43,055 nucleotides of DNA from Kyrpidia sp. GTDB lineage: Bacteria > Bacillota > Bacilli > Kyrpidiales > Kyrpidiaceae. Below are positions 40,066 to 43,055 of this stretch, piece after piece (the stretch's first letter is position 1; each line of letters starts with the position of its first letter). A model generated the notes under the pieces. The model made no database searches, was not told where the DNA came from, and worked only from the letters and a program-made list of their open reading frames with translations. A program made the position numbers and the translations under genes. The stretch is from positions 1-43,055 of the forward strand of contig JASBVV010000015.1 of the NCBI GenBank assembly GCA_029960885.1, read 5' to 3'.

Positions 40066-40094
40066 TTTCGCAAAAAAGGAATCTTTTGTATAAT
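40066..40094 (+). promoter_or_regulatory. Promoter of the Gfo/Idh/MocA gene
   Basis: Consensus -10 TATAAT (40089-40094) and a weak -35 TTTCGC (40066-40071), 17-bp spacing. It is divergent from the namA promoter; between them lies the perfect hairpin CGCCCGGG-TTCG-CCCGGGCG (40027-40046). Confidence 0.55.
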
Positions 40095-40115
40095 CGGGAG
40101 GGAGGAGGCGAGGAC

Positions 40116-41246
40116 ATGGTCTCGTTTGGACTGATCGGCCCCGGTGCGTTCGGCCGGTTTGTCCTGACTTCGGTCGCGGCCCTACCGGAATTGCAGTTGA
40201 AGTGGGTATGGGGAAGGCGCCCCGAGTCGGCCGAATGTGCGGCCGCACTGTGGGCGGATGCCCGGCGGGGGGCGGGCCGGGCCGAAGTTCCGGTCCAGTG
40301 TGTGGCCGGTGAGGACGTGGACTGGCCGAGAGAACGGGTGGATGTGGTGGTGGTGGCGACCCCGCCGGATCGCCAGCCGGATTTTGCCCTCCGGGCGATT
40401 GAGCGGGGGACGGCATTGTTTCTGGAGAAGCCGGGCGCGCTGGATGCCGCGCTGCTGGACCGGGTGGCCGCCCGGGCCCGCGCCCGGGGTGTCCCGGCGA
40501 CCGTGGATTTTGTTATGCGGCACAATCCCTTGGTTCGGATGTTGCGGGCTTGGGTCAGACAAGGTGTCATGGGCTTGCCGGAGCACGTTCAGATGGAAAA
40601 TTGGGCGGGAGGGCACATGGCCCCGGGCCACTGGTTTTGGGATTCCCGCCGGAGCGGTGGCATCTTGGTGGAGCACGGAATCCACTTTTTTGACATGGTA
40701 CGATACATTCTCGACGGAGAGTGGGTACCGGTTCATGCGGCCATCTGGGAGACGGTGCGTTCGGAAGGGTGGACGGCCGAAGACCGGGTGTTGGCGGTGG
40801 TGGAACATCGGGGTCTCGATCCGGAAACCGGGAAACCGGTATGGCGCGCCCCCGGCGGTTACTACCACGGCTTTACCCGGCCCGGGGACGGAGAGCGGAC
40901 CCAGACGGGTCTCGTGTTCTCCGGGGGGTACGCTGTACTGTACGGCTGGATCCCTGAACGGCTGGAGGTGTGGCTGGACCGCGGAGACGCGGAGTTGCAG
41001 GTGCCCGCTTGCGCGTCCAACGAGGTGCGGCCGACGGTGGAGCGCCGAGGACGCCGCTGGACAATATCGTTTCCCGATCGCCAGCAGTTGTACCGTGCGG
41101 CGATTCGGGGGGGCATGACGGATCTTCTGGCCGCACTCCGGGATCCGGGGCACCGGGTGGAGGCGCCGTTGGAAGATGCCGTCAAAGCCTTGGAATTGGC
41201 CGCGTCGTTGACCCGTTTGGCCCGGGCGAGACATACGGTGGCCTGA
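40116..41246 (+). CDS. Gfo/Idh/MocA-family oxidoreductase
   Basis: 376 aa from ATG 40116 behind GGAGGAGGCG. N-terminal Rossmann motif GLIGPGAFGRF, then ATPPDRQPDFALRAIERG and FLEKPGALD (the EKP motif with the catalytic lysine). The C-terminal half fits the family's substrate domain (HGIHFFDMVRYILDGE). Such enzymes oxidise or reduce sugars and related polyols with NAD(P). The substrate cannot be read from sequence. Neighbouring manA and a sugar nucleotidyltransferase hint at carbohydrate metabolism. Confidence 0.85.
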   Translation: MVSFGLIGPGAFGRFVLTSVAALPELQLKWVWGRRPESAECAAALWADARRGAGRAEVPVQCVAGEDVDWPRERVDVVVVATPPDRQPDFALRAIERGTALFLEKPGALDAALLDRVAARARARGVPATVDFVMRHNPLVRMLRAWVRQGVMGLPEHVQMENWAGGHMAPGHWFWDSRRSGGILVEHGIHFFDMVRYILDGEWVPVHAAIWETVRSEGWTAEDRVLAVVEHRGLDPETGKPVWRAPGGYYHGFTRPGDGERTQTGLVFSGGYAVLYGWIPERLEVWLDRGDAELQVPACASNEVRPTVERRGRRWTISFPDRQQLYRAAIRGGMTDLLAALRDPGHRVEAPLEDAVKALELAASLTRLARARHTVA

Positions 41247-41300: not shown

Positions 41301-42260
41301 ATGAAAGCGTATCCGCTCAAGTTTCGACCGGTGTTTCAAGAGCGCATCTGGGGCGGGGCCCGGTTGCGCCATCTCGGTTATGCGATTCCGTCAGATCATG
41401 TCGGAGAAGCGTGGGTGATCTCCGATCACGATCACGGCCCCACTCCTGTGGCCGAAGGTCCTCTGGCCGGAAAACGGATCGGGGAAGTGATGAGAGAGTA
41501 TCCCGATTGGTTCGGTCTGCCCCGAGGGGCGCGGTTCCCCCTGCTGGTCAAGGTCATTGATGCCGCCGACGACCTGTCCGTGCAGGTCCACCCCGACGAC
41601 CGGTACGCCGGAGCGCGGGGTGATGAGGGGAAGACCGAGGCGTGGTTTGTGCTTGACGCCGAACCTGGTGCGTCCATCATCTACGGTCACCGGGCCAAGG
41701 ACCGGGAGAGTCTCGAACGGTGCATGAAAGAGGGGGCGTGGGGAACCCTCCTCGTCAAGACCCCGGTTCAGCGAGGGGATTTCTATTTCGTTCCCAGCGG
41801 CACGTTGCACGCGATCGGCAAAGGCCTGTTGATTCTTGAAATCCAGCAGAGTTCCGATACGACCTACCGCGTGTATGATTATGACCGCGTGGATGCGAGC
41901 GGCCGGAAGCGGGATTTGCACTTGGAGGACGCGATGGCAGTGACGCGTTGTCCTTCTCCGCAACCGGCGAGGCCGGGATATGCGCGCTCCGGTCGCCGGG
42001 GAGCGGTCGTCGAGCACTTGATCCGGTGCGAGAAATTCGCCATCGACCGCTGGTTGATCGACGGCGAGGCCGAACTGTCTCGGAGTTCCACCTTCCTGCT
42101 CCTGAGTGTGCTCGAGGGATCCGGAGAAATTCGGTGGGAGGATGACGCCCTGCCCGTCGCACGAGGCGACCACCTGTTCATCCCCGCAACCCTCCGAGGT
42201 GCTTCTGTATGCGGAAATTTTGAAGGGCTCTTCTCTGCGCCGATTATTAGCACTCGATGA
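41301..42260 (+). CDS. manA: Mannose-6-phosphate isomerase, class I
   Basis: Interconverts mannose-6-phosphate and fructose-6-phosphate. 319 aa, the short Firmicute form. Zinc ligands visible: Gln95 and His97 (VQVHPDD), Glu113 (KTEAWFV) and His170 (PSGTLHAIG). ATG 41301 follows GGGGGAGGGAG. The stop codon 42258-42260 lies inside the spacer of a CIRCE operator. The following gene is a nucleotidyltransferase, so a GDP-mannose or related nucleotide-sugar route is plausible. Confidence 0.95.
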   Translation: MKAYPLKFRPVFQERIWGGARLRHLGYAIPSDHVGEAWVISDHDHGPTPVAEGPLAGKRIGEVMREYPDWFGLPRGARFPLLVKVIDAADDLSVQVHPDDRYAGARGDEGKTEAWFVLDAEPGASIIYGHRAKDRESLERCMKEGAWGTLLVKTPVQRGDFYFVPSGTLHAIGKGLLILEIQQSSDTTYRVYDYDRVDASGRKRDLHLEDAMAVTRCPSPQPARPGYARSGRRGAVVEHLIRCEKFAIDRWLIDGEAELSRSSTFLLLSVLEGSGEIRWEDDALPVARGDHLFIPATLRGASVCGNFEGLFSAPIISTR

Positions 42261-42273
42261 AAACGAGTGCTAA
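42247..42273. promoter_or_regulatory. CIRCE element (HrcA operator)
   Basis: Perfect consensus TTAGCACTC (42247-42255), 9-base spacer, GAGTGCTAA (42265-42273). Two further flanking pairs extend each arm to 11 bp. CIRCE is the operator of the heat-shock repressor HrcA and normally precedes groESL or hrcA-dnaK. Here the left arm is the end of manA and no chaperone gene follows in the window. Confidence 0.92.
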
Positions 42274-42370
42274 TAGGTGGTGAATGCGTGCTTTTGACGG
42301 ATTTTCTGTTAAAATTGCCCTTTACAACGGGTGGTTGGCCGAAACGGTCCTCGCACCGGTATCCGTTTTG

Positions 42371-42379
42371 TGTTAAGAT
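42371..42379 (+). promoter_or_regulatory. Extended -10 promoter before the nucleotidyltransferase
   Basis: TGTTAAGAT, with TG at 42371-42372 and TAAGAT at 42374-42379; no good -35. It would give a leader of about 170 bases. The 42274-42557 stretch holds no convincing gene; it contains an imperfect repeat around TGGCCGAAAC (42336-42345 and 42411-42420). Confidence 0.45.
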
Positions 42380-42557
42380 GAAAGCATATATGACGACTCT
42401 GAGCGGGGGATGGCCGAAACAAGATTCACACGTTCATGACATGCTGAAAAGACCCCATGTTCACAGGTTCATACGTTTCATAGGTCTGGGGGTTCGGTTA
42501 TCGGCGAACTTGGCGCGGTTTCGGCTCTACCCCGGATGAAACAGGGAGGTCGAGAGT

Positions 42558-43055
42558 GTGAAAGCACTGGTTTTAGCTGGTGGGAAGGGAACTCGCTTGC
42601 GGCCCCTCACGGACAAGTTGCCGAAGCCCATGGTTCCAGTGGCCAACCGGCCTCAACTGGAACACCTGTTGCTGTTGTTGCGCCGCCACGGGATTGACGA
42701 GGCGGTCATCACCCTCGGATACTGTGGCCAGGAGATTGAGGACTATTTTGGCGACGGGGCGAAGATCGGCTTGAATCTCGCCTACGTCCGCGAAGAGACC
42801 CTGCTGGGAACGGGCGGGGCGATTGTTCAGGCCAGACACCACTTCAACGACACGTTCCTCGTCTGCAACGCGGACATCGTGACCGATTTGGATATCTCCG
42901 CTTTGGTTCATTTTCACCTGGAGCGCAACGCGCTGGTCACCATCGCCACCACTTGGGTCGAGGACCCGACGCCTTACGGGTTGGTTGAAAGCGATCCGCA
43001 TGGAAGAATCCAACGTTTTTTGGAAAAACCATCTCTAGAGGAGGTCACCACGAAC
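42558..43055 (+). CDS. Nucleotidyltransferase / NDP-sugar pyrophosphorylase (3' truncated by window end)
   Basis: 166 codons open to the window edge, starting at GTG 42558 behind AGGGAGGTCG. The N-terminal signature LAGGKGTRLRPLTDKLPKPM is the nucleotide-binding loop with the catalytic lysine region of sugar-phosphate nucleotidyltransferases; GTGGAIVQA and CNADIVTDLD (metal-binding Asp) follow, and FLEKP near the end. Closest in style to mannose-1-phosphate guanylyltransferase-like or glucose-1-phosphate thymidylyl/uridylyltransferase-like proteins. With manA directly upstream, a mannose-1-phosphate substrate is plausible but not shown. Whether a phosphomannomutase-like domain follows, as in some GMPP-like fusions, cannot be seen. 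Confidence 0.9.
   Translation, partial: MKALVLAGGKGTRLRPLTDKLPKPMVPVANRPQLEHLLLLLRRHGIDEAVITLGYCGQEIEDYFGDGAKIGLNLAYVREETLLGTGGAIVQARHHFNDTFLVCNADIVTDLDISALVHFHLERNALVTIATTWVEDPTPYGLVESDPHGRIQRFLEKPSLEEVTTN

Follow-up and report, generated by a model that had tools for sequence, protein, structure and literature searches.

The HrcA regulon is commonly taken to consist of a small number of chaperone operons, and in B. subtilis-type systems HrcA is kept active by GroE. The best known targets of this class I regulation are groESL and hrcA-grpE-dnaK. The locus described here, from the genus Kyrpidia, thermophilic spore-formers of hot acidic sites, shares with that system the operator (18/18 arm positions), the presence of an HrcA gene and, in most relatives, the placement of the operator beside a sigma-A promoter. 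It differs in its probable target, which is a mannose-activating and glycosyltransferase operon instead of chaperones, and in the asymmetric form of the operator, TTAGCAGCC-N9-GAGTGCTAA, carried by many relatives at the nucleotidyltransferase gene.

The closest described gene cluster is the beta-1,2-mannoside cluster of Thermoanaerobacter sp. X-514 (Teth514_1785-1796), in which 1785 is annotated as 'hypothetical', 1786 as a GT4 glycosyltransferase, 1787 as a mannose-1-phosphate guanylyltransferase, and 1788 and 1789 as GH130 phosphorylases (PMC4264767). It was proposed to serve GDP-mannose salvage; the source of beta-1,2-mannan in Thermoanaerobacter was called unidentified, and CIRCE, HrcA and heat shock are not mentioned (PMC4264767). 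The guanylyltransferase, the GT4 enzyme, the 'hypothetical' third protein and GH130 are all shared with the locus under study, the difference being that GH130 in Kyrpidia is encoded at a separate locus. Judged from sequence, the predicted CIRCE-controlled unit is the Thermoanaerobacter cluster Teth514_1785-1789.

A more distant parallel is the mannogen of Leishmania, an intracellular beta-1,2-mannan that GH130-like enzymes both make and recycle from Man-1-P/GDP-Man (PMC8950772, PMC3290622). With its beta-1,2 linkages and GT108 enzymes of GH130-like fold, this system is a functional analogy only; the GT4 enzyme of the bacterial operon is expected to give alpha linkages. On the regulatory side, a T. 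kivui strain deleted for hrcA showed no phenotype when its growth was followed at 72 C (PMC12044746), and no transcriptome of that strain was found in the literature.

A perfect CIRCE at the end of manA

The window, that is, the whole 43,055-bp stretch of DNA that was analysed, is an entire contig (C11) of a 2.04-Mb, 102-contig draft genome (MAG), which is why its nucleotidyltransferase gene is cut at position 43055; the later operon genes fall outside the contig and only the first is visible. The features at this end of the window are as follows.

41301-42260, + strand: manA, mannose-6-phosphate isomerase class I, its last codons overlapping the CIRCE
42220-42247, + strand: candidate sigma-A promoter P1, TTGAAG (42220-42225), 16 bp, GATTAT (42242-42247); predicted, 8/12 and weak, with the -10 touching the CIRCE
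42245-42275, no strand: outward continuation of the palindrome by 2 bp on each side, giving 11-bp arms (from the sequence)
42247-42255, + strand: CIRCE left arm TTAGCACTC (from the sequence), unchanged in four members of the Kyrpidia family
42256-42264, no strand: 9-bp CIRCE spacer GATGAAAAC, containing the manA stop (42258-42260); 1/9 positions conserved in the family
42265-42273, + strand: CIRCE right arm GAGTGCTAA (from the sequence), unchanged in four members of the Kyrpidia family
42371-42379, + strand: possible second promoter P2, predicted from an extended -10, TGTTAAGAT, of the form TGTTA[AG][AG]AT in four family members
42412-42525, + strand: leader hairpin, GGCCGAAAC (42412-42420) with GTTTCGGC (42518-42525), a stem kept throughout the family around a variable interior
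42544-42549, + strand: ribosome binding site GGGAGG, unchanged across the Kyrpidia family
42558-43055, + strand: sugar-1-phosphate nucleotidyltransferase (NTP_transferase), first gene of the controlled operon, truncated by the contig end; best NCBIfam match mannose-1-phosphate guanylyltransferase

The element TTAGCACTC-GATGAAAAC-GAGTGCTAA agrees with the CIRCE consensus at 18/18 arm positions (0 mismatches), at exactly the position, 42247-42273, where the earlier note had reported a perfect site. Its 11-bp arms were also found, positions 42245-42246 pairing with 42274-42275, and an inner G-C pair (42256/42264) would lengthen them to 12. The site was said to lie over the manA 3' end, about 285 bases before the nucleotidyltransferase: the TGA stop indeed falls within the spacer, and the GTG start at 42558 is 284 bp downstream of the element.

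At up to 3 mismatches this is the sole match in the window, and none appeared in 100 dinucleotide shuffles of it. A genome-wide scan at the same threshold returned exactly three CIRCEs, all perfect, located before hrcA-grpE-dnaK (contig C45), before groESL (C68) and at the manA-nucleotidyltransferase junction; a reversed-pattern control gave 0 matches genome-wide. Together with the conservation of the site in relatives described below, these counts make a chance palindrome vanishingly improbable, in line with the original assessment. The repressor itself is encoded in the genome (C45, 128721-129377; 220.7 bits against a cut-off of 22.2), which settles the concern that an HrcA gene might be missing.

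The earlier note had offered two explanations for a CIRCE at this place, namely HrcA control of the downstream gene or a relic of a moved groESL operon, and had considered that the contig might be misjoined. A relic of a relocated groESL (or dnaK) operon would suit the usual place of chaperone operons downstream of CIRCE. Nevertheless, both the relic and the misjoin fail because groESL, like dnaK, has its own CIRCE elsewhere in the same genome and because K. tusciae and Kyrpidia sp. EA-1, whose chromosomes are complete, show the identical order manA-CIRCE-nucleotidyltransferase (published genomes of 3,384,766 bp, PMC3236038, and 3,352,175 bp, PMC5773743, respectively). When the manA-nucleotidyltransferase gap was compared in related genomes, as had been proposed, the same junction was also found in a second genus of the Kyrpidia family, and relatives carry the mannose operon downstream in place of groESL. 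The pairing of operator and gene furthermore recurs in at least 18 families, and its arms are conserved next to diverged flanks, which is not expected of a relic. This explanation, misjoin included, is thus rejected as extremely improbable, whereas HrcA control is strongly supported by the recurrence of the pairing, by an HrcA gene in 54/54 genomes checked and by the promoter-CIRCE-gene layout. A search for plasmid near-matches found none.

Just upstream of manA lies a gene for a Gfo/Idh/MocA-type oxidoreductase (window 40086-41246). Genes of this type also adjoin the CIRCE-nucleotidyltransferase locus in Geobacillus (L087, 5532-6746) and lie in the vicinity of groESL in a further genome (G018; L280, 5924-6499), and a functional link is possible.

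Conservation of the operator across Bacillota

In an alignment of four members of the Kyrpidia family, in which invariant positions were counted, the arms are unchanged throughout (18/18), compared with 1/9 positions of the spacer, 47/150 of the manA 3' end and 108/284 of the leader (flanks 31-38%). Invariant arms set in a diverged spacer and diverged flanks are the pattern of a protein-binding palindrome. The transcript of an 11-12 bp inverted repeat would also fold into a hairpin, and the palindrome could accordingly act at the RNA level, serving transcript stability or processing at the manA 3' end, rather than in DNA. This is very improbable, since genomes with a perfect site keep the arm sequence itself beyond mere pairing, compensatory pairs are absent from the arms in the genomes compared, and the asymmetric variant loses pairing at 2-3 positions yet retains one half-site.

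For a class-wide sample, every orthologue of the nucleotidyltransferase (E <= 1e-85) was collected from 399 genomes of the class and from the Kyrpidia family, and the 900 bp before each gene were scanned for the CIRCE with the fewest mismatches. At 33/39 orthologous loci this best CIRCE has at most 4 mismatches and lies 49-330 bp before the start codon; these loci cover 10 families, and nine of the 33 sites are perfect. The remaining 6/39 loci (G004 and five members of family f25) have best matches of 7-9 mismatches, with none intermediate. Of 3,900 first-order Markov sequences used as a null, 0.2% had a best match with 4 mismatches and none a closer one, and no CIRCE match under 6 mismatches occurred inside the open reading frames of the class loci. 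In a phylum sample of 40 loci picked via the third gene of the operon, 11 carry a CIRCE with no more than 3 mismatches, adding 8 further families, and 29 are without a recognisable CIRCE.

The arrangement is seen in Thermoanaerobacter wiegelii, Thermobacillus xylanilyticus, Paenibacillus ihumii, Geobacillus thermocatenulatus and several Brevibacillus. The operon occurs without a CIRCE in Clostridium ragsdalei and in four Cohnella, the latter scanned to 7 mismatches. Four loci lack the nucleotidyltransferase (G607 and G760 in the phylum sample, G009 and G032 in the class), and there the CIRCE precedes the GT4 gene or a GH130 gene ahead of GT4. As to the asymmetric operator mentioned above, one half-site is perfect and the other changed; one genome that carries it at the nucleotidyltransferase (G049) has three perfect CIRCEs elsewhere.

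Promoters and leader

A sigma-A promoter scoring at least 9/12 and ending within 14 bp upstream of the CIRCE is present at 58% of loci, compared with 3.7% of control positions, and in T. wiegelii the arrangement reads TTGACA-17-TATAAT-ACTTA-CIRCE. The promoter beside the CIRCE scores 8/12 in the window, is not convincing in one family member (G003) and is better in most relatives. A strict sigma-70/terminator scan of 41900-42700 returned nothing, P1 being below its stringency. The stem of the leader hairpin, which lies close to the ribosome binding site, shows one compensatory change in G003.

These features allow a different division of labour in Kyrpidia, in which HrcA bound at the site would act mainly as a roadblock to read-through from manA and the nucleotidyltransferase would be driven from a promoter at about 42374 with its structured leader. 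The overlap of the CIRCE with the manA stop, the weakness of P1, and the conserved extended -10 (TGTTAARAT) and conserved hairpin between the CIRCE and the gene all favour such an arrangement, and the extended -10, about 100 bp downstream of the CIRCE, could drive the nucleotidyltransferase independently of HrcA. It is rather unlikely, however, in that most other families have a good promoter directly before the CIRCE and do not have manA upstream of it, the operator staying with the same gene, and a T-rich terminator is absent between the CIRCE and the gene in Kyrpidia.

Two further candidates in the leader were set aside. A small open reading frame at 42267-42539 was rejected as a leader peptide because indels in the family alignment disrupt its frame. 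No Rfam match at the gathering score was obtained in the window end or in 20 orthologous loci, and a hit to the yeast snoRNA snR75 at 42373-42449 (27.2 bits against a gathering score of 40) was taken as chance. Brevibacillus-type leaders (L071, L072, L073, L074 and L075) contain, 22-51 nt ahead of the start codon and within the CIRCE-to-nucleotidyltransferase leader, a long conserved hairpin with a T run, AAGAAG.TTGTTCATA...TATGTGCAA.CTTCTTTTTT, which matches no Rfam family and looks like an attenuator or terminator.

Operon content and the mannoside pathway

In relatives the operon opens with the nucleotidyltransferase and continues with a GT4 glycosyltransferase and a third gene whose product has about 360 aa, often followed by phosphomannomutase (PMM) and manA; the first three are all present in K. 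tusciae, Kyrpidia EA-1 and other families, and manA is part of the same operon in other families. For the nucleotidyltransferase the nearest family is that of the mannose-1-phosphate guanylyltransferases (NF052502, 270.7 bits, under the strict cut-off of 440), which are also among its PDB matches. Most orthologues of the third protein match nothing in Pfam significantly. The AlphaFold model of this protein (pLDDT 83) shows an (alpha/alpha)6 barrel, the nearest structures being Y. pestis YPO2471, cellobiose and N-acylglucosamine 2-epimerases, GH9 and GH76. Single open reading frames of 757 aa (G734; L272, 4902-7175) and 771 aa (G607; L274, 3859-6174) appear to be GT4-(alpha/alpha)6 fusions, which argues that both proteins act together.

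A GH130 gene is present in 22/26 genomes checked. In three genomes (G541, G571 and G760) it opens the CIRCE operon, with the CIRCE before it; in Brevibacillus massiliensis and G656 it is the final gene of the operon. T. wiegelii has two GH130 genes directly upstream, the CIRCE lying between this pair and the guanylyltransferase, and the one that was searched against solved structures matches the Thermoanaerobacter beta-1,2-mannobiose phosphorylase 7FIP over its full length. In the window's genome the GH130 gene is unlinked to the operon (C15, 67388-68194) and matches the NCBIfam beta-1,2-mannobiose phosphorylase with 482 bits against a cut-off of 450. GT4 is a retaining family; the product is therefore expected to be alpha-linked, whereas GH130 acts on beta-mannosides.

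A connection to surface polysaccharide, suggested in the earlier note, finds no support in this content: the operon combines GDP-mannose supply with GT4 and the (alpha/alpha)6 protein, often accompanied by an intracellular GH130, and the inspected neighbourhoods showed neither export nor polymerase genes.

Proposed regulation and role

On this comparative evidence, the CIRCE very probably works as an HrcA operator. The mannose operon that it would control, predicted to be heat-inducible, has the nucleotidyltransferase at 42558 as its first gene, and control of this operon by HrcA is very likely. At normal temperature HrcA would occupy the CIRCE at or beside the sigma-A start site, the exact position of which in Kyrpidia is a prediction, and transcription would be blocked. 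Upon heat shock or protein-folding stress HrcA would be inactivated and the operon derepressed alongside groESL and hrcA-grpE-dnaK. The enzymes would then produce GDP-mannose (or a similar NDP-sugar), which the GT4 transferase and the (alpha/alpha)6-barrel protein would consume to form a putative mannoside, and the GH130 beta-1,2-mannoside phosphorylase would act in the same pathway by recycling the mannoside to Man-1-P. Since GH130, which some families encode within the operon and the window's genome at another place, would belong to this pathway, mannoside turnover is probably raised under heat. The product may plausibly be a heat-protective or reserve carbohydrate.

A broader proposal, put forward only tentatively, is that in much of the Bacillota an operon for making and recycling a mannoside, which might be beta-1,2-mannan, has long belonged to the core of the HrcA regulon, providing a heat-induced thermoprotectant or reserve like Leishmania mannogen, and that HrcA may control other thermolytes as well.

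Both operator and repressor are well known, and the mannose operon would be a new member of the HrcA regulon rather than a new type of regulation. No report of HrcA/CIRCE control of this operon was found in the full-text literature; RegPrecise and subscription papers lay outside this search, and a database prediction may exist. As at least 18 families keep a non-chaperone target, many Bacillota, thermophiles included, probably have a class I heat-shock response that extends beyond protein-folding chaperones to a conserved sugar pathway. The operator would also link the GT4/(alpha/alpha)6 pair and the bacterial GH130 beta-1,2-mannoside phosphorylases to heat or protein-folding stress, a first hint at their physiology, and the question can be put to a direct test in the T. 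kivui strain already deleted for hrcA (PMC12044746).

Other CIRCE-associated genes

Two additional kinds of site were observed during the survey. A CIRCE with 1 mismatch lies directly before htpG (HSP90) in two genomes (L281, 2718-2744, G036; L285, 2607-2633, G024). In family f24, a CIRCE-like element, TTAGCACTC-N9-GGCTGCTAA, with 2 mismatches (L276, 4548-4574, G026; L277, 3284-3310, G044) is located about 215 bp upstream of a myo-inositol-1-phosphate synthase gene, which is followed by a bifunctional IPCT/DIPP-synthase-like gene (NF041135, 221.6 bits, below the cut-off of 580), with a divergent small gene opposite. Di-myo-inositol phosphate is a known solute of hyperthermophiles, and these f24 genes are possibly those of another HrcA-controlled thermoprotectant.
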